DNA from: Microgenomates group bacterium Gr01-1014_16
GTDB taxonomy: Bacteria; Patescibacteriota; Microgenomatia; CAZETR01; Amesbacteraceae
Direction of reading: 5' to 3'
Length of the DNA: 42,440 bases
NCBI GenBank assembly: GCA_007376345.1
Contig: VMGA01000011.1
Span: 1-42,440, forward strand
Shown: positions 19,562 to 36,405 of the stretch, piece by piece
How positions within the stretch are numbered: the first letter of the stretch is position 1
Layout of the letters: each line of letters starts with the position of its first letter
Position numbers and translations under genes: made by a program
Notes under the pieces: generated by a model
The model's input: the letters and a program-made list of their open reading frames with translations, nothing else
Told to the model about the DNA's origin: nothing
Databases searched by the model: none

Positions 19562-20545
19562 CTATTCCGTCTTAGTCTCTCTATCGAGGCAGTCCTGGAT
19601 GTGTTTATCAAGTCTAGTAAATAAGCTTTGGCGAACGGGATTCCATGGGTGGTCGATCGGTGGCCAATTTTTACTCCAATAATATTCTTCGAATGTACCC
19701 TTGGTCCACTCTTCATCGGGTGCGAATTCTGAAAACTGCGGCGACGGATCAGATTTTCTGACTCTGTCTACAAGATCAGCTTTGTAATCCTTAAATCCTT
19801 GATCCTCATAATCGTATGGAAGTGGAATAGGGTGTGTGGAAGAATATTGTTTATAAAGTTGATAGTCAAGCATTTCCACAGCTCGCTTTTGCGCAATTAA
19901 AACATTTAGTTCTGTTTGTTCGCTTCTGACCATATGTGGGGGATAGTTGTCGACAAGATACAACTTGTCGGTAAGATCTCCCAGCTTCCTACCAATGACT
20001 AGATTGTGGAATTCTCCCCAATCCGTGTCGTAATGCAAAAGATCCGGAAAAAAAGAAATCCATTTTTTTGGGGATACGCCGAGCGATTGTGCTTTTATCT
20101 TGTAATACAAGTCTAGAGAGGCTTCGATTAACCTACCTAAGCTAGAGAAATGGTCGGGTGTAATTTCAGTTTCTAAATATTGGCTAAGTTCTTTTCCCTC
20201 AATCTTTTGTTGTATTTGGACAATAGCTTCTTGTCCAGTCTGGTCTTGCCCTAAGACGAGATGATATTTAGGAAGATATTGGCTGATTATTGGGTCACTG
20301 TCTAACAAACCCATGGTTCTTTTTACAGCTGTAATCCACTCTATTCCTTGAGGAAGGGAGTTTTTACCATCCACAATTTTTTCAAATGCTCTGCTGTCGG
20401 TTTGCTGGCCAATAACTTTGACCAACCATTCAGGATGGCCTGGAATCTCGACGATTCGGCTCATTTGCCCTAAGGGGAAGGGGGAATCAGGCATTTTTAT
20501 TTTAAAAGGAAGAAATTCTTCTGGTACCTTGTCTTGGAGTGGCAT
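19562..20545 (-). CDS. Hypothetical protein with possible divergent kinase-like fold
   Basis: 327 aa; SRIVEIPGHPEWLVKVIG..., HLVLGQDQTGQEAIVQIQQKIEG, DWGEFHNLVIG...KLYLVDNYPP loosely recalls the catalytic loop/DFG order of protein-kinase-like enzymes. Confidence 0.5.
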   Translation of the reverse strand: MPLQDKVPEEFLPFKIKMPDSPFPLGQMSRIVEIPGHPEWLVKVIGQQTDSRAFEKIVDGKNSLPQGIEWITAVKRTMGLLDSDPIISQYLPKYHLVLGQDQTGQEAIVQIQQKIEGKELSQYLETEITPDHFSSLGRLIEASLDLYYKIKAQSLGVSPKKWISFFPDLLHYDTDWGEFHNLVIGRKLGDLTDKLYLVDNYPPHMVRSEQTELNVLIAQKRAVEMLDYQLYKQYSSTHPIPLPYDYEDQGFKDYKADLVDRVRKSDPSPQFSEFAPDEEWTKGTFEEYYWSKNWPPIDHPWNPVRQSLFTRLDKHIQDCLDRETKTE

Positions 20546-20696
20546 GAGTGTGTTATTAGAGATAAGTTAAGATGTGTATGGAAACTGTCCATATTTTATC
20601 ATCAACCCCCGGATTTCTGACAAAATAATACGATTGTTCTCAAACCACGTTAATTTGGGTATCTGATCCCAGATCCGAAACAGCCTAAATTATGGA

Positions 20697-21521
20697 CTAA
20701 TTTCCTTCAGATTTCGATCGGCAATAATCTTTTATCAATGTTCTACTCAATCCAGGTGAATAGAAATTAATTCCCACTTCTTCCTCTTTAAATGCCATTT
20801 TTTTCCAACTTTTCGGCACTCGGCATATATACTTTTCTCCCGACCCCGATTCGTATTCAAATTCGCAGCCATTAAATATCTTCTGTGTTGACCCATCAAT
20901 CTTCACCGTTGCTGTGCCACATCTCAAGGGATAGGTGATCGTCTTCGCCTGGCATTTTTCAAAATCCAGAATGGCAAACTTGGCAAAAACCTTCTCATCC
21001 CAGGTAAAACTATTCAATATTCCGTCAAATTCCTTTTCACTATTATTAACTATTCCCCGAAATATATAAAATGCCTCCCCCCAGTCTATCACTGCTGTTT
21101 TTACTTTGTCTCCAGCTTTATATGGTCGATTAAAAAGTGGTTTTGTAAAGGTCACGGTTCCCTCAAAAATAAATCCACTATCTATGTCTTTAATCCGAGT
21201 ATCAACAAAATCATCGTCAATTTCTCTTTTTCTTTCCGCCAGTGACCTACTCGTTTCCTGATCGACACTTATTTGAAAATCTGGTACTTTGGCATACGCC
21301 TCTGTCCCCATATCTGTGGGGTTCATATCAATCCAACCCGAGTCGGTATATGGATTAAACCCTTCCCGATACCACCAGCCAGTTGGTAGCGTTAATCGTA
21401 ATCTCTCAAGCACTAGAGCTTGACTAATGGGGGCAATCGGGCAAACAGTCGGCTTAACGTCTTTATGTCTTATAACAAGAACTACTCCAACAATCACCAT
21501 TACCAGAAACAAGTACCTCAC
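20697..21521 (-). CDS. Hypothetical exported or membrane-anchored protein
   Basis: N-terminal hydrophobic segment MRYLFLVMVIVGVVLVI then a 250-aa soluble region. Confidence 0.6.
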   Translation of the reverse strand: MRYLFLVMVIVGVVLVIRHKDVKPTVCPIAPISQALVLERLRLTLPTGWWYREGFNPYTDSGWIDMNPTDMGTEAYAKVPDFQISVDQETSRSLAERKREIDDDFVDTRIKDIDSGFIFEGTVTFTKPLFNRPYKAGDKVKTAVIDWGEAFYIFRGIVNNSEKEFDGILNSFTWDEKVFAKFAILDFEKCQAKTITYPLRCGTATVKIDGSTQKIFNGCEFEYESGSGEKYICRVPKSWKKMAFKEEEVGINFYSPGLSRTLIKDYCRSKSEGN

Positions 21522-24292: not shown

Positions 24293-25162
24293 ATGGCCAC
24301 CAAGCGTGATTATTACGACATTTTGGGCGTCTCCAAATCGGCATCCGACGCCGAACTCAAATCGGCATATCGAAAAATGGCCATGCAATGGCATCCTGAC
24401 AGAAACAAATCTCCAGATGCCGAGGCCAAATTCAAGGAGATCAACGAAGCCTATCAGGTTCTCTCCGATCCCAAGAAAAAGCAAACTTACGACCAATTTG
24501 GCCATTCTGCCTTTGACCCATCGGCCGGCGGCTTTGGTGGCCAGGGTGGCGTTCGCCAAGGTCCTTTCCAATATTATTATTCGTCTTCAGCTGGCCAAAA
24601 TCCATTTGGTGACATGGGTGGCTTTTCCGATCCCTTCGAAATTTTCGAGCAGTTTTTCGGGGGAGGCGGCAATTATGGCGGAGGTCGTCGTGCCACCAAA
24701 AAAACCCACTACTCTCTGCGCATTCCTTTCATGACTGCTGTCAAAGGTGGTGAAGAGGCCGTCACAATCGAAGGCAAAAAACATACTATCAAGATTCCCG
24801 CCGGCGCCGATACCGGTACGCATCTTCGTTTTACCGATTTTGACGTTACTTTTGAAGTCGAGCCTCATGCCCAATTCAAGCGCGATGGTGATGATATCTA
24901 TATTGATCGCGAAATTTCTTTCACTCTGGCGATTTTAGGGGGCGAAACCAATGTCACAACTCTGGACGGCAATTTAAAGCTCAAAATCCGCCCTGGCACT
25001 CAGCCCGGTTCCACTGTCCGCCTTTCCGGTCGCGGCGCCCCTCGCCTCAATTCGTTCAAGAGAGACGATCGCGGCGACTTTTACATCCGTCTCAAAATCA
25101 CCTTCCCCGAAAATCTCTCTAGAAGACAAAAACAACTCTTAGAAGAATTTGAAAGAAATTAG
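24293..25162 (+). CDS. dnaJ: DnaJ/CbpA-type chaperone without zinc finger
   Basis: [34 protein letters not shown]; no CxxCxGxG repeats; C-terminal substrate domains. Confidence 0.92.
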
Positions 25163-25365
25163 TATCACCATAAAAACTCTTTGGAACTGTCATAAAAATG
25201 ACAATCATGGACATTTGTTCCCCTGAAAAGAATCTAGTCGCGCGGGGCAATGCAAAGGGCTTTCTGTATTCCACCATAAGCCGAACTTTCAAAAAAAAAG
25301 AACAAAAAACGGAAATTTTATGGGTCTATATTTGCTAAAATCATGGCAAAATATCGTAACGCAAC

Positions 25366-26769
25366 ATGAAAGATAGATACCATCAACATCTAGAAGACGA
25401 GCCCAATAAAGAACAGAAAAAATTGTCTGAGGAAATTACGATAATCAATCCTCCACTATTCTCTCATGATGGCCATTTGAGTGCTGGCCAATTGGTTTCC
25501 ATCACATTGGTTGACGTAACTTACAGATATTTTAGAGATAAAGCCAAGGTTACAAATTATGCTTCTCGTGCCTACAACGTCCAAGGTAAACCGGCAGAAA
25601 GCGAAGAAACATCAAACACTGATCTAATAACATTTGTTAAAGACGCCAATGTAAGAACGAGTAAACTAGCTGAACAAATAGAGCAGGAAAAAGAAAAACT
25701 GGGAGTACTCGGTTCTGGATTTGAGTTTGTTGACTCGAGTAAATCTTCACAGGCGACAGCTCAAAAAAGATTCATCGATTTATGCGAAAAAGGATTGATA
25801 TTTAGAAACGGTCGCCGTTTCTTTTTGAATTCTGATTTGGCGGTAAAAACCCACGATATGACCAAAGTAATCGAAACCATCGAGTTTCATCCTAAAAACC
25901 TTAAAAACACAATAAACCAACTCTTGAATGATGCAGTTACACCCATAGAATTAACGAAAGACAGACTTTTTGCCACCCCACTCCCAATACATGTCTGTGG
26001 TAAGTGTGATGTTGACTTCATGTCAAGTGATGTGTCTTTTCCTATTGATCCAAGAGTAAATCCGGCAGAATGCCTTAACTGTCACCACATTTCCGTCAAT
26101 GATCCTAGAGACACTCTCGCTCCACTATTTGATTTGACCCAACAAGGACACTATTTATCACCCGACCACTCTGGCACGGTGGTTCAAATTTGTGGCAGAA
26201 ATGTTTTAACTAAATATATCTTTTTTTCTTTGTTAATTAATACTGCTCTTGACGGAAGACCTCCTTTTGATGTTTTAATCACCCACGGATTTCTCAACGA
26301 CCAAAATGGCAAAAGGATGGCAAAATGGAACGAAAATATGGTCTTTGTTAATGAACTACTTAACCAGTTTCACCCAGATGCGATTAGGTTCTCGATCCTA
26401 AAAACTTTAAGCCTAAATGACAATTCAAGCAATTTTGACCAGAGACAGCTTGAATATGGACAAAAGTTCATTTACAAAATCGGAAATTTAAGAAAGCTTT
26501 TTAAGCTAAATAACATTAACTTGGCGGAAACACCATTAGATGAGGCCTTTTTCAGTAAATATCAAAGATTGATGGAAAGATTTGACTACAAATTAGCCTT
26601 TACGCTTACTGAAAAATATCTATCTACAATCAGTTCTGATGTCGCCCGCGGGAGGGAGAGTGGAATGGTAGACATGCAAGACAAGTCGATCAGATACAAA
26701 ACTGCGATATTGGCACTACAACCATTCCTACCAAACATAACTGGACAATCCATCGCCGAATTATTTTGA
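25366..26769 (+). CDS. Divergent stand-alone class I aminoacyl-tRNA synthetase-like protein (MetRS/LeuRS-like)
   Basis: INPPLFSHDGHLSAGQLVSITLVDVTYRYFRDKA (HIGH-like), CGKCDVDF...CLNCHH, HGFLNDQNGKRMAKWNENMV...FHPDAIRFSILKTL (KMSKS-like). Confidence 0.7.
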   Translation: MKDRYHQHLEDEPNKEQKKLSEEITIINPPLFSHDGHLSAGQLVSITLVDVTYRYFRDKAKVTNYASRAYNVQGKPAESEETSNTDLITFVKDANVRTSKLAEQIEQEKEKLGVLGSGFEFVDSSKSSQATAQKRFIDLCEKGLIFRNGRRFFLNSDLAVKTHDMTKVIETIEFHPKNLKNTINQLLNDAVTPIELTKDRLFATPLPIHVCGKCDVDFMSSDVSFPIDPRVNPAECLNCHHISVNDPRDTLAPLFDLTQQGHYLSPDHSGTVVQICGRNVLTKYIFFSLLINTALDGRPPFDVLITHGFLNDQNGKRMAKWNENMVFVNELLNQFHPDAIRFSILKTLSLNDNSSNFDQRQLEYGQKFIYKIGNLRKLFKLNNINLAETPLDEAFFSKYQRLMERFDYKLAFTLTEKYLSTISSDVARGRESGMVDMQDKSIRYKTAILALQPFLPNITGQSIAELF

Positions 26770-27552
26770 CCCCATTTTTATCCAGTCCAGAATTTTGCTC
26801 AAAGAGCTAGTGGTTTGTAGTCCATAAAAAGATAAATGACCAGCATTCGGTACTAGCAAAAACTCGCTTTCCTTGTTCTTTAAGTCATCAAAAAACCTCC
26901 TTGTTTTATAAACCGAGATTGTCTTGTCTTCTTCACCGTGAACCAGAAAAAGTTTTTTCGGGGAAAGCTCTTTTATGTATTTGATGGGGTTCATGTCAAT
27001 TTTCCCTTCCAACAACTTTTTCCAATCCCGCAATTCAAAGTCGTAGGCTCGACCGTAACCTCGTTGCAAGAACTCGCCCAAGTTAGTTAGGTCTTGTTCC
27101 TCCCGCTTGTCTTTACCCTGCGTGGAAAAATCAATTACCGGGGCGATGGCAATTGCTCTGTTGACATTTTGGCTTCTAGCCGCACTAACCAAAGCCACTG
27201 AACCTCCAAAACTCGAACCGAACAAAATGACTTCATCAAAATCAAATTTGATGAGAGAGTTATCGTAGGCGCTTACCAAAGATCTTTCCTTTTTTAAATG
27301 ATCAATCACCTTCAAAATGTCATCTACGGGAGAATGATTCAAAAACTTCCCATAGCTTTCCCAAGTACCCTCATACTTCGGGTGTACACAAATAAAGCCC
27401 TCTTGAGTAAAATATGAGAAAAGCTCGTAATTCTCTGGCTGTCCAGGGAGTCCAGAACAGGCGATAATAATTTTCTTCTGAGGCTCTGAGCTAGGGAGGC
27501 TAAAGAGACAGTGAATCTTATCAATATACGACCGATACATTATCATATGCAT
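26761..27552 (-). CDS. Alpha/beta hydrolase
   Basis: ILFGSSFGGSVALVSAA nucleophile elbow; LFLVHGEEDKTISV; NAGHLSFYG. Confidence 0.8.
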   Translation of the reverse strand: MHMIMYRSYIDKIHCLFSLPSSEPQKKIIIACSGLPGQPENYELFSYFTQEGFICVHPKYEGTWESYGKFLNHSPVDDILKVIDHLKKERSLVSAYDNSLIKFDFDEVILFGSSFGGSVALVSAARSQNVNRAIAIAPVIDFSTQGKDKREEQDLTNLGEFLQRGYGRAYDFELRDWKKLLEGKIDMNPIKYIKELSPKKLFLVHGEEDKTISVYKTRRFFDDLKNKESEFLLVPNAGHLSFYGLQTTSSLSKILDWIKMGSK

Positions 27553-27560
27553 TAAATTAA

Positions 27561-28484
27561 ATGAAAATTAAAAAACACTCTTACATTCTATCAAAAAACG
27601 GATTCATTTTATGCGTTTTGGCAAATATTGGCAATTATTACTTGGGCGAGATTTTGTATGGTTTACTTCCCCAAAAGAATACCTCAATTAAATATATTGA
27701 TGGTAAGAAATTTTTCAAGTATTGGTCAATTCAAAACAAAAACAAAAAACTTAAAGGGAAAGTGGGCGAACCAACCAAATATGACCAATACTATAAAACT
27801 GTTTCTGCTATTTACGGAAGCTATTCCTATGATCATACACTAATTGGTAAAGTTTTTAGAGTTGAAAAAGACGAGATAGAAAAAATCTGGATTCCAGTTA
27901 ATTTTGAAAGCCTTGGAGTTAAACAGAAGCCTTATATCGAGAAACTCTCTAATTTTTTGTCCATTGACCCTGAAAATATTGACGTTGCTGGTTCGAACAT
28001 GCTCGACCAAAATATTTTAAGTAACAATGATTTTGATATCGTCCTTAATACTAAAGAGTCATCACAACGGATGGTTAGCATGATTCGAAAGTTGACATCA
28101 GATCCCCTGTATAACGAAGAAATAAGACCAAACAATATCCATCATCGAAGATTCATATTGAATTCTGTAAAGATTTGTTCCTTTGGGTCATCGGAAGATG
28201 AAAATATTTTTGAGGACTCTAAATATACTTTGATAAGCCAAAGTAAGAAAAAAAAAGCCAGAGTTATCGACGATTCTGAGTCACTCTTATCCCCTTCCAA
28301 ATATAAAATTTTAGTTGACAACAAAGAAAGTTATTTTATCAGCTACCATGTTGGTCATACGGCCTTATTCAAAAAAGATGATTTCATTGAATTTGAAGCT
28401 CCATTGTTTGATTTTAAAATCAAAAACAAAAACGTCTCTGCCTATGTTTGTCCTATTGAAGGCACATGGGTCGCTATTTTTTAG
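27561..28484 (+). CDS. Putative nucleotidyltransferase-like protein
   Basis: DVAGSNMLDQNILSNNDFDIVLN recalls the GS...DxD NTase pattern. Confidence 0.5.
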   Translation: MKIKKHSYILSKNGFILCVLANIGNYYLGEILYGLLPQKNTSIKYIDGKKFFKYWSIQNKNKKLKGKVGEPTKYDQYYKTVSAIYGSYSYDHTLIGKVFRVEKDEIEKIWIPVNFESLGVKQKPYIEKLSNFLSIDPENIDVAGSNMLDQNILSNNDFDIVLNTKESSQRMVSMIRKLTSDPLYNEEIRPNNIHHRRFILNSVKICSFGSSEDENIFEDSKYTLISQSKKKKARVIDDSESLLSPSKYKILVDNKESYFISYHVGHTALFKKDDFIEFEAPLFDFKIKNKNVSAYVCPIEGTWVAIF

Positions 28485-28488
28485 ATCA

Positions 28489-29313
28489 CTAATTCGCTTT
28501 TGAGAATACGAAGATGTTATCCTCTTGCAGAAAAGCTCCTTTTTTCCGTTTAACATATTTAATAACACTGTCCTTGATTTTCTCATCGAGGTCAATCCAA
28601 GGATAATTCAAGTAGAATTCCATTATTGCTACAAAATCTTGTTCGTCTTTAAAAATAGGAATACGAAGCTTTGATTTAGACTTAAACTTAATAGTTTTAT
28701 AACCCTCTTCGTTTAGCTGAACTAGACCTTTTTCAATCACCTGACTTGTTTTTGCTCTAAAAACCCCAAAAATTCCTTTTTTGAATTTGGTTTTAAAATG
28801 GAAAACATCGTCTTTACCTCTTAGTGTGAAAATTAGTGACCCACCACCTTTTAATAAAAACAACATATTTCTAATTTCCAAGAGATAATTATCGATATTG
28901 AAGTGGTAAAGATGAGTTGCAAAAATAAAATCGAATTTTTTTCTGACCTTAAATTCTTCCCATCTGTCATTCACAAAAAAAGGTCTTAATTGTGCAGTTT
29001 TTGGAAAATTATTTTTTAGAGCATTCATTAGATCAACGCTGGGTTCAAGCAAGGTAATTGATATTTTTGTCGACTTTCTCTGATCAAGCAACTTTTTAAG
29101 TACGTTATTTAGAAAAGCGCCTTCTCCAGCGCCAATATCAAGTACTGATATTTCCCCTGAAAAACCATTTGGAATTCGTTCTCTTAGTATTTTTAAGTAC
29201 TTTTTAGCCAGTTTGTTTTTCTCATTTGTATATCTTAAAAAGGTTTCAAAAGGAGTCTCCCGGTTATTTTTAGTTCTATACTCGTAACCTCTTCCTGGTA
29301 AAAGCATAGTCAA
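28489..29313 (-). CDS. SAM-dependent methyltransferase
   Basis: VLDIGAGEGAFLNNVLKKLL motif I, ITLLEPSVDLM motif II. Confidence 0.8.
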   Translation of the reverse strand: MTMLLPGRGYEYRTKNNRETPFETFLRYTNEKNKLAKKYLKILRERIPNGFSGEISVLDIGAGEGAFLNNVLKKLLDQRKSTKISITLLEPSVDLMNALKNNFPKTAQLRPFFVNDRWEEFKVRKKFDFIFATHLYHFNIDNYLLEIRNMLFLLKGGGSLIFTLRGKDDVFHFKTKFKKGIFGVFRAKTSQVIEKGLVQLNEEGYKTIKFKSKSKLRIPIFKDEQDFVAIMEFYLNYPWIDLDEKIKDSVIKYVKRKKGAFLQEDNIFVFSKAN

Positions 29314-29319
29314 GATTTT

Positions 29320-29583
29320 ACCATCGACAAAGCTATTCCTTTTACCCTAGCCATTTTAGGCGGGGAAACCAATGTTAATACGTTAGACGGAAATCTCAAA
29401 CTCAAAATCCGCCCCGGAACCCAACCTGGTCCGACGGTTCGCCTCTCCGGTCGCGGCGCCCCTCGCCTGAGTTCATTCCGAAAATCCGACCGCGGCGACT
29501 TTTATATCAGGTTGAAAATCACCTTCCCCGAAAACCTCACTCGCCGCCAAAGACAGCTTCTGGAAGAATTCGAGCGTAGCTGA
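29320..29583 (+). pseudogene. Remnant of a second dnaJ 3' end
   Basis: [86 protein letters not shown] parallels dnaJ residues at 24910-25162; no start codon. Confidence 0.93.
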
Positions 29584-33363: not shown

Positions 33364-35538
33364 ATGAAAATTACCAGTAAATCCATTGAATTGGCAGGAC
33401 GGACCCTGACGCTTGAGGTCGGCAAATATGCCCAACAGGCCACGTCTGCAGTTTACTCCCGTTATGGCGACACTTCCTTATTGGCGACTGTAGTTGCAGG
33501 CCAGGAAGATTCCAAAAAAGATTATTTTCCTCTTTCAGTGGAATATCAGGAACGTCTTTACGCCGGTGGCCGGATCAAAGGTTCCCGCTGGGTCAAGCGC
33601 GAAGGCCGTCCCACCGACGCAGAGGTCTTATCCGCGCGTTTGATCGACCGTTCCATTCGTCCCCATTTTCCCGCGTCTTTCAAAAAAGAAGTTCAGGTAA
33701 TTATTACTGTTTTGTCGGTGGACACCAAAAACGACGCCGATGTTTTAGGCATTATTGCCGCTTCCGCCGTCTTGGCCGTTTCTCCCATTCCTTGGAACGG
33801 CCCCGTCGCCGCCGTCCGCATGGGTCTGCTAGACAACCAATTGGTAGTCAATCCCGAAAATGGCAATCGCCAAGGAACCGAACTTGATTTGGTTGTTTCC
33901 AGCACCGCCAATTTAATTTGCATGCTCGAAGCCGGCGCCAAGCAAGTCCCCGAGGATTTGATGTTCACCGCTCTCGAAACCGCCCACAAAGCCAATCAGG
34001 AAATCAACAAACTCATTACCGACCTTACCGAAGCGGTAGGGCTAGATAAGTTCAACTTTAAAGAGCCGGAATTCAATTCCGAACTTGTTGCCCAAATTAG
34101 CCGCGACGCCAAAGATTTGCTCGCCGACTATGTTTCTTCCGCTTCTACCAAAGAAGGAGTAGATATTGGCGCCGCCATTTCCCAGCTTTCCCAATCGGTT
34201 GACGACAAACTTAAATCTCAGGTTCCTCTAATAATTGAAGAGCTTCTGCACAAAACAATTCGCCAAAACATTTTAGAAAAATCAAGACGCCCTGATGGTC
34301 GCAAGTTGGACGAGATCAGGCCCTTGAATATCGAAGTCGGCGTCTTACCCCGCGTCCACGGCTCCGCAATATTCCAGCGCGGCCAAACCCAGGCCCTTGT
34401 CGTAGCTACGCTTGGCGCCCCATCCCTGTCCCAATCTCTGGAATCAGCCGAAGGAGAAGAGCAAAAACGATTTATGCTGCATTACAATTTTCCTCCGTTT
34501 TCAACCGGCGAAACCGGCAGATTAGGATCCCCCGGCCGTCGCGAAATCGGCCACGGCGCTCTGGCCGAGCGGGCCCTAGTCCCCGTTATTCCCCCCGAAA
34601 CCGAATTTCCTTACGCTATCCGCGTCGTTTCCGAAATCTTGAGTTCCAATGGCTCCACATCTATGGCCAGTACTTGCGGCTCCACAATGTCTTTAATGGA
34701 TGCTGGGGTACCACTGTTAGCCCCCGTCGCCGGAATTTCTATCGGCAAAGTCGACGATGTTCTACTCACTGATATTATCGGTCTGGAAGATCATCACGGC
34801 GACATGGATTTCAAAGTCGCCGGAACACAAACAGGTATTACTGCCATCCAGCTCGATGTCAAAGTTCCGGGTCTGACTCTGGAAGTCTGCAAAGAAACCC
34901 TAGCTCGCGCCCACTCCGCCCGCATGTTCATTATGGATGCCATGTTAAAAATCTTATCTACTCATCGTCCCCAGCTCTCCAAATTTGCTCCCAAAATTAG
35001 CACGGCCATTATCCCGGTCGACAAAATCGGCGAACTCATTGGCCCCGGCGGCAAAAATATCAAAAAACTCATGGCAGATAACAGCGTGACCATCGACGTC
35101 AACGACGACGGCTCGGTTTTCGTTTCCGGTACTGATGATGCCGGTGTCACCAACGTTCTCTCCTATCTCCAGGCCATGGGCAAAGAAGTCGTCGTCGGCG
35201 AAGTTTATGAGGGCCTGGTTGCCAATATTATGCCCTTCGGCGCTTTTGTAAATATTTTGCCCGGCCGTGACGGCTTGGTTCATGTTTCCCAAATGGCCGC
35301 TGGTTTTGTTTCCGATCCCAGCACGATTGTCCAGATGGGTCAGACAGTTCGCGTTTGGGTAACCGAAGTAGATGCGACTACCGGCAAAATCGGCTTATCT
35401 ATGCTCTTCGACGATGCAGGTCAACCCCTAGTCAAAGCCCGCGAACCTCGCGAAGCCCGCCCTCCTCGCCACGACTCATTTTCAGCCCCGATGCGGCGTG
35501 GTTTCGATCGCGATCGCGCCCCTCGCCGCAGATTCTAA
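33364..35538 (+). CDS. pnp: Polyribonucleotide nucleotidyltransferase
   Basis: PNPase domains, FMLHYNFPPFSTGETGR, KH and S1 domains (IGELIGPGGKNIKKL), RG-rich tail. Confidence 0.97.
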   Translation: MKITSKSIELAGRTLTLEVGKYAQQATSAVYSRYGDTSLLATVVAGQEDSKKDYFPLSVEYQERLYAGGRIKGSRWVKREGRPTDAEVLSARLIDRSIRPHFPASFKKEVQVIITVLSVDTKNDADVLGIIAASAVLAVSPIPWNGPVAAVRMGLLDNQLVVNPENGNRQGTELDLVVSSTANLICMLEAGAKQVPEDLMFTALETAHKANQEINKLITDLTEAVGLDKFNFKEPEFNSELVAQISRDAKDLLADYVSSASTKEGVDIGAAISQLSQSVDDKLKSQVPLIIEELLHKTIRQNILEKSRRPDGRKLDEIRPLNIEVGVLPRVHGSAIFQRGQTQALVVATLGAPSLSQSLESAEGEEQKRFMLHYNFPPFSTGETGRLGSPGRREIGHGALAERALVPVIPPETEFPYAIRVVSEILSSNGSTSMASTCGSTMSLMDAGVPLLAPVAGISIGKVDDVLLTDIIGLEDHHGDMDFKVAGTQTGITAIQLDVKVPGLTLEVCKETLARAHSARMFIMDAMLKILSTHRPQLSKFAPKISTAIIPVDKIGELIGPGGKNIKKLMADNSVTIDVNDDGSVFVSGTDDAGVTNVLSYLQAMGKEVVVGEVYEGLVANIMPFGAFVNILPGRDGLVHVSQMAAGFVSDPSTIVQMGQTVRVWVTEVDATTGKIGLSMLFDDAGQPLVKAREPREARPPRHDSFSAPMRRGFDRDRAPRRRF

Positions 35539-35545
35539 TCAGAAT

Positions 35546-36088
35546 ATGTCCAATTCACTCCTTGCCCAATCGGCAAAATTAAAAAAACAAGCCGATAAAA
35601 TACTCTTCAAATCAGATTTAGTAAAAATTCTGGAAAAGTTTGGGAAAGTTGAGTTTACCGGCAGCTACAATTACGATTTAATACTCAATCCGGATATCGA
35701 CCTGTATTTGGTCGTTGATGAACCAAACAAAAAAATTACCCAGGACTTAGTCAATCAATTTATAGATCAAGGTTTTTGGAACCGCATCAAATACGCCGAC
35801 TTCGTAAATTTTCCTTATCCAAACGCTCTGGAATCATTAAACAAATCTTTTTATATCGGTCTAAAAGCAAATATTAACGATCTTGAATGGAAAGTTGATA
35901 TTTGGATTGTTTCCGCAAAACAATCAGAAGATTTTAGATATCCTTGGATCAAACAAAAATTAGATGCCAATACAAAATCAATAATATTAAATTTAAAAAA
36001 CGATCCCAATCGGGGATCGATAACCTCATTTGCCATTTACGACGCAGTTTTAAATAATGGTGTCACTTCAATAGAAGAACTCAAGTAA
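35546..36088 (+). CDS. Nucleotidyltransferase-domain protein
   Basis: FTGSYNYDLILNPDIDLYLVVDEP (GS...DxD); start at ATG 35546 preferred over 35498. Confidence 0.65.
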   Translation: MSNSLLAQSAKLKKQADKILFKSDLVKILEKFGKVEFTGSYNYDLILNPDIDLYLVVDEPNKKITQDLVNQFIDQGFWNRIKYADFVNFPYPNALESLNKSFYIGLKANINDLEWKVDIWIVSAKQSEDFRYPWIKQKLDANTKSIILNLKNDPNRGSITSFAIYDAVLNNGVTSIEELK

Positions 36089-36126: not shown

Positions 36127-36405
36127 GTGAACTTACTTCCTCACATGGTTTCGGCTTCTGACTTACAGCGCGATTCGGCTCGGATTATCAGCCTGGCCAT
36201 GTCCGGTGACGACCCGGTATTTGTAGTCAAAAACAATAGACCCCAGGCGGCAGTTATCAACTTAAGAAGACTTAAATATTTAATAGATAAAACCACCGAT
36301 TGGGAAACAAGGGATGCCTTAGAAGCAATTAGAATTGGTGAAAAAGAGCTTAAGCAAGGTAAATTAAAGTCAACCACGGATTTTTCGGAGTTTTTAAATG
36401 ATTAA
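36127..36405 (+). CDS. Phd/YefM-family antitoxin
   Basis: SASDLQRDSARIISLAMSGDDPVFVVKNNRPQAAVINLRRLKYL; overlaps the RelE-like ORF. Confidence 0.75.
   Translation: MNLLPHMVSASDLQRDSARIISLAMSGDDPVFVVKNNRPQAAVINLRRLKYLIDKTTDWETRDALEAIRIGEKELKQGKLKSTTDFSEFLND

Follow-up and report, generated by a model that had tools for sequence, protein, structure and literature searches.

What can a protein that resembles a class I aminoacyl-tRNA synthetase (aaRS) do in a bacterium that already has canonical enzymes of this class, when its gene lies outside any operon of translation genes? The question is raised by P0001 of the Microgenomates group bacterium Gr01-1014_16, which is encoded in a stretch of 42,440 nucleotides (contig VMGA01000011.1; the window). 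The initial annotation, made from the letters alone, had taken the gene for a degenerate class I aaRS paralogue recruited to chemistry outside translation. That it is a divergent paralogue of this recruited or degenerate kind is borne out by its profile matches and by the host genome (1.03 Mb, 94.8% complete), which carries canonical ValRS, IleRS, LeuRS, MetRS, and CysRS separately on other contigs, so that metG, valS, ileS, and leuS are all accounted for.

The gene occupies positions 25366-26769 of the forward strand, exactly as annotated, and is an intact open reading frame of 467 codons with no in-frame stop. The other five frames over the same interval contain 14-48 stops each, and GC by codon position is of the coding type (GC1 0.45, GC2 0.33, GC3 0.35). 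P0001 is a relative of the class Ia aaRSs, with a homology far above chance: it matches the Pfam model PF00133 (tRNA-synt_1) at 2.2e-14, above the cut-off, and PF09334 at 7.8e-8, and by its catalytic-domain match and class I fold it belongs to the class I aaRS superfamily. The best NCBIfam profile is PRK13208, archaeal-type ValRS (1.3e-26; 93.1 bits vs a cut-off of 738), and the ValRS model TIGR00422 gives 60 bits against a cut-off of 612. Lower in rank follow PRK05729 ValRS and IleRS (50 bits), then the MetRS profile metG, which at 36.4 bits lies under the Val and Ile models, and archaeal LeuRS with 27 bits; all the Val, Ile, Met, and Leu scores are far under the cut-off of each family. Two half-profiles, for which only canonical ValRS from this phylum served as input, each match P0001 independently, the N-terminal half at residues 14-152 (i-E 1.2e-5) and the half after the CP1 domain at residues 195-462 (3.3e-17).

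Class Ia enzymes for Val, Ile, and Leu are normally tied to a CP1 editing domain. P0001 lacks this domain (about residues 180-365 of ValRS), and pre-CP1 FIDLCEKGLIFRNG adjoins post-CP1 RRFFLN and FHPKNLK directly; the junction lies at residues ~134-159 (25765..25842) in alignment A4 and in the phmmer alignment. The zinc-knob-like CxxC/CxxC insert that had been noticed at the outset is present as a CxxC-(21)-CxxC knuckle (C211, C214, C236, and C239; 25996..26082, alignment A4), with all four cysteines retained, and it sits after CP1 at the same site as in archaeal-type ValRS; it is thus a Val/Ile-type knuckle and not the one of MetRS. The helical C-terminus of anticodon-binding type (26476..26766), also foreseen in the annotation and seen both in A4 and in an AlphaFold2 model, is internally shortened and stops at QPFLPN, where canonical ValRS has HPFMPF and then a C-terminal tail. 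The model, with A4 as input, has pLDDT 72 and pTM 0.73 and is weakest at residues 67-85 and 248-269; the input rows are ValRS, so that the fold is partly imposed and the model shows compatibility rather than blind proof. An earlier AlphaFold2 model (A2) was poor (pLDDT 53) and was discarded. When the retained model is compared with the PDB by Foldseek, the best 50 matches listed are all class Ia synthetases (3e-15). By E-value the list is led by MetRS and Mycoplasma LeuRS, both compact, and the lead of MetRS is presumably due to its similarly short length. An identification as MetRS from this ranking was rejected, because sequence and knuckle position favour Val/Ile and because, among the matches listed, the highest TM-score to the query (0.75) belongs to the ValRS structure 1gax.

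The catalytic motifs of valyl-tRNA synthetase, HIGH and KMSKS, are absent from P0001, which has SAGQ and RMAKW in their places. In alignment A4 and the table of conserved columns, the HIGH position falls in HLSAGQ (residues 37-42; 25474..25491) and corresponds to S39-A40-G41-Q42. The GHLSAGQ of the annotation covers this position, but the histidine of its GHL stands two residues before the motif and is no HIGH histidine; both HIGH histidines are replaced, by S39 and Q42, and G41 is retained. The amino-acid-binding loop GxDxxGxP(x)E reads AYNVQGKPAE (residues 69-78; 25570..25599), with N71 in place of an Asp that occurs in all Val, Ile, Leu, and Met rows compared. The KMSKS-like site, located correctly at KRMAKW but to be read as R317-M-A-K320-W321 within GKRMAKWNEN (residues 315-324; 26308..26337), keeps only K320: the serines have become A319 and W321, and the glycine that follows the motif has become glutamate. 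The Trp/Ser pocket positions are replaced as well. The extent of this loss can be expressed by the 36 columns that are conserved in >=85% of 46 Val and Ile enzymes. Of these, 15 are retained in P0001 (P30, G41, D50, R54, G113, P266, G315, K320, D338, R341, N374, D392, A411, P453, and P456), and they are mainly structural, while LeuRS retains 22-28 and MetRS 21-25. By this measure LeuRS and MetRS, which have other specificities but working sites, keep more of the Val/Ile pattern than P0001 does.

As a separate observation, the resident ValRS (L001) and LeuRS (L003) carry HTGN and HVGN at the HIGH position; the second histidine is already variable in the lineage. The HIGH variant of TrpRS is TIGN.

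From which enzyme does P0001 descend? Its best pairwise match is an archaeal-type ValRS (77 bits, 23.5% identity over 336 aa), and its nearest sequences, L103 and L104, are ordinary archaeal-type ValRS with 20-24% identity to it. Since the resident ValRS is of bacterial type and these nearest matches are archaeal, a simple duplication of the resident valS is unlikely. In the trees P0001 stands alone outside all clades, on a terminal branch of 4.0-4.9 changes per column vs a median of 0.45-0.5. AU tests, the resolution of which is limited by this long branch, give p 0.23 for a grouping with archaeal-type ValRS, p 0.22 with bacterial-type ValRS, and p 0.547 with MetRS, and in every AU test completed no placement of P0001 was rejected. 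The profiles and the position of the zinc knuckle point to the Val/Ile side. That P0001 might be the only metG of the genome and an ordinary member of the MetRS clade fails in its first half, because the canonical MetRS of the host is encoded on contig C29; for the second half there is the p value of 0.547, with the long branch behind it.

No orthologue of P0001 came up in whole-genome protein searches of the 13 other family members, of phylum samples, and of samples from three classes; within the phylum, the genome searches number about 1,370, with overlaps between the sets. The searches recovered the gene itself where its genome was included and otherwise longer canonical enzymes only, the three best matches (L013, L103, and L104) being full-length ValRS of 726-827 aa. 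There was likewise no orthologue in phage, plasmid, and viral collections. Pattern and tblastn scans of the genome and viral collections with P0001, which are weak in that they need short near-exact peptides, gave none either, nor did scans steered to GKRMAKW and YNVQGKPA by an artificial alignment (A3), which share this weakness. In the plasmid collection there are two weak IleRS-like matches. H2 (NZ_CP040452.1, 281433-282116, a Halomonas replicon) is a weakly aaRS-like region where no gene is listed, and probably it is an ordinary IleRS that the PLSDB table omits.

The surroundings of the gene suggest how it may have arrived. Beyond the island, the window carries ordinary housekeeping genes (ribosomal proteins, SecY, Adk, EF-Tu, EF-G, nusA, IF-2, and pnp), without RNA genes, tRNA genes included, anywhere within it. 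P0001 belongs to an AT-rich island of 4.2 kb (25163..29332) with four genes on alternating strands, a GC content of 32-41% per gene vs about 48-54% in the flanks, and no counterpart between dnaJ and nusA in relatives, several of which have nusA close behind dnaJ with nothing between. The composition and this interval in the relatives uphold the early description of a stand-alone gene in a block of cargo. The left edge of the island is an intact dnaJ (24293..25162, forward strand). The right side of the island borders on another dnaJ 3' end (29334..29582, forward strand), which is in frame and shares 77% DNA identity with that of the intact gene. Downstream of this stump come the ancestral junction AGCTGATATAATC and then nusA, and because the identical sequence is found at the dnaJ/nusA junction of genome G001, the stump is the native end of dnaJ. 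From this follows that either the intact dnaJ was completed by incoming DNA, or a second copy arrived with the island. The duplicated end would fit a scenario in which foreign DNA entered dnaJ by homology-assisted insertion, and the island shows how such lineages can acquire foreign genes while the core gene is kept.

The other cargo consists of an alpha/beta hydrolase similar to prolyl oligopeptidase/S33 (26761..27552, reverse strand), a SAM-dependent methyltransferase (28489..29313, reverse strand), and a 307-aa protein (27561..28484, forward strand) with no match in Pfam, NCBIfam, PHROG, or PADLOC. In the latter, GSNMLDQNILSNNDFDIV, of the form GS-x(11)-DFDIV, resembles by eye a nucleotidyltransferase motif. 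A reading of the four genes as one operon or pathway was rejected on account of the alternating strands, and the neighbours suggest no pathway for P0001. No cupin, lysine N-hydroxylase, or carrier protein is found beside it among the island genes, and PADLOC gives no anti-phage defence match for P0001 itself.

The reading that we put forward, with middling confidence, is that P0001 is a horizontally acquired, non-charging pseudo-synthetase of Val/Ile type, which would most likely still bind the acceptor end of tRNA, an aminoacyl-tRNA, or a nucleotide. A Val/Ile-type class Ia paralogue would have been acquired by horizontal transfer, would have lost its CP1 editing domain and its C-terminal tail, and would then have diverged at about ten times the rate of its relatives. 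What P0001 retains is the Rossmann core together with the CxxC/CxxC knuckle, the lysine of the KMSKS loop, and the helical tRNA-side domain, while replacement of the residues for activation of ATP and amino acid would have turned the protein into a pseudo-synthetase, perhaps a regulator or an aminoacyl-tRNA-dependent transferase. P0001 is not expected to charge tRNA for translation, because the genome carries the canonical enzymes. Normal activation of an amino acid is unlikely, because the HIGH histidines, the Asp that holds the amino group, and the KMSKS serines are all lost; from these residues and the enzymology of class I we infer that adenylation has probably gone. Some activity may nevertheless persist, because some class I enzymes work with an altered HIGH motif, as the HxGN of the resident ValRS and LeuRS illustrates. 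By analogy, core, knuckle, lysine, and helical domain, which contacts tRNA in relatives of P0001, would suit a protein that binds tRNA, aminoacyl-tRNA, or a nucleotide, but a retained lysine and a family fold fall short of proving any ligand, and binding of tRNA or aminoacyl-tRNA, like any transfer, is speculative. In a more specific version, which we consider quite improbable, P0001 would be an editing-free class Ia enzyme that activates no amino acid itself and takes aminoacyl-tRNA from the canonical synthetases as donor at a rebuilt site (S39, Q42, N71, K320, and W321), a transfer route independent of the cyclodipeptide synthases.

How do other explanations fare with the same observations? 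The gene could be a passenger in decay, a transferred fragment of a ValRS or IleRS without function in its host, the reading frame of which happens to be unbroken still. The loss of catalytic residues, the extreme branch length, the truncations at CP1 and at the C-terminus, the lack of an orthologue in any collection searched, and the position among unrelated genes on alternating strands in an AT-rich island would all be expected from decay. Yet 467 stop-free codons with coding-type codon positions would not, nor would the retention of conserved glycines and prolines, of Asp and Arg in the helical region, and of the four knuckle cysteines. Both halves of the protein still match their own profiles, and a clean loss of CP1 alone looks like an older, tolerated architecture. 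On balance we regard decay as rather unlikely, yet as a serious rival.

If P0001 were instead a recruited amino-acid ligase, which despite its altered motifs still forms an aminoacyl-adenylate and hands this on to a small molecule or a protein, precedents would exist in MshC (PMC9736012) and in the cupin/MetRS-like Spb40 (PMC10445470). K320 and G41 are retained, resident ValRS and LeuRS have altered HIGH motifs, and a methyltransferase and a hydrolase are among the adjoining genes. However, in MshC the ligand contacts are made by residues of HIGH and KMSKS (PMC9736012), while P0001 has lost both HIGH histidines and has Asn for the Asp of all Val, Ile, Leu, and Met enzymes compared. As its neighbours moreover are not co-directional and include no carrier protein, cupin, or hydroxylase, a ligase is improbable. 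Very improbable is an unusual working aaRS, such as a back-up enzyme, an antibiotic-resistant one, or one for a non-standard amino acid. Extra aaRS copies that confer resistance are known (PMC9437257), the class I core is there, and MetRS exemplifies an editing-free class Ia enzyme, but the loss of conserved positions exceeds that between different specificities, the C-terminal tRNA-binding part is shortened, and the window contains no tRNA genes.

Paralogues resembling aaRSs are already known, and P0001 is a singleton variant of them. Its position of the CxxC/CxxC knuckle and its helical C-terminal motifs are shared with archaeal-type ValRS (PRK13208; L103, L104, and L014-L018), but these enzymes have about 790-830 aa vs 467 for P0001, which has neither CP1 nor the C-terminal tail and has lost HIGH, the amino-acid-binding Asp, and the greater part of KMSKS. 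LeuRS-I of Sulfolobaceae is likewise an extra class Ia paralogue beside a normal enzyme with a proposed non-charging role; its CP1 is disrupted, and it binds tRNA and cannot aminoacylate (PMC9437257). LeuRS-I still forms leucyl-adenylate (PMC9437257), however, while in P0001 the adenylation residues are gone and CP1 is wholly absent. SbzA, an IleRS-like aminoacyl transferase that moves Ile from Ile-tRNA (PMC6331615), uses a class Ia core of Ile/Val type, like that of P0001, outside translation, but it has only slightly modified HIGH and KMSKS motifs, an editing domain, and a biosynthetic cluster, all of which P0001 is without. The cyclodipeptide synthases have a class I-like fold in which HIGH was lost and a conserved Ser gained in the active-site loop (PMC2922099, PMC12945691); P0001 likewise has a class I fold without HIGH and a serine at this loop, but they resemble TyrRS and TrpRS cores, and the likeness to S39 is merely positional. 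None of these three, LeuRS-I, SbzA, or the cyclodipeptide synthases, is near enough to lend P0001 a function. The parallel that the initial annotation had drawn, to MetRS-like domains in hydrazine-forming enzymes, is not supported, although P0001 may carry out some new chemistry. A class I core recruited outside translation is indeed exemplified by Spb40/AzsN with its MetRS-like domain (PMC10445470) and by MetRS paralogues (PMC2922099). These derive from MetRS, however, and have a cupin and a lysine N-hydroxylase as neighbours or fusion partners; for the paralogues, the two are invariable companions (PMC2922099). P0001 falls on the Val/Ile side by its profiles and knuckle position and has neither partner beside it. 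With a class Ia Val/Ile/Leu core kept, CP1 dropped, and the active site rebuilt, P0001 offers a test case for what this core can do apart from charging. Should it bind aminoacyl-tRNA, it would lengthen the short list of repurposed aaRS cores, and this in bacteria that shed genes.

The dnaJ-nusA interval holds other, unrelated open reading frames in G003, G005, and G012, and it likely serves the family as a hot spot for insertions. Unrelated reading frames of this interval in other genomes of the family lie at L068 (14259-15818), at L069 (11961-15392, a DUF559 gene among them), and at L070 (2728-3681).

Elsewhere in the window, two reading frames of 327 and 274 aa (19562-21521, reverse strand; GC about 40-42%), with no Pfam match, lie between a HicB-like gene and EF-G. 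An AT-rich reading frame of 196 aa (35498-36088, 35% GC, no Pfam match above cut-off) overlaps the end of pnp and contains the nucleotidyltransferase-like motif GSYNYDLILNPDIDLYLV. It is followed by a weak match to a Phd/YefM-like antitoxin (36127-36405), with which it may form a toxin-antitoxin pair.
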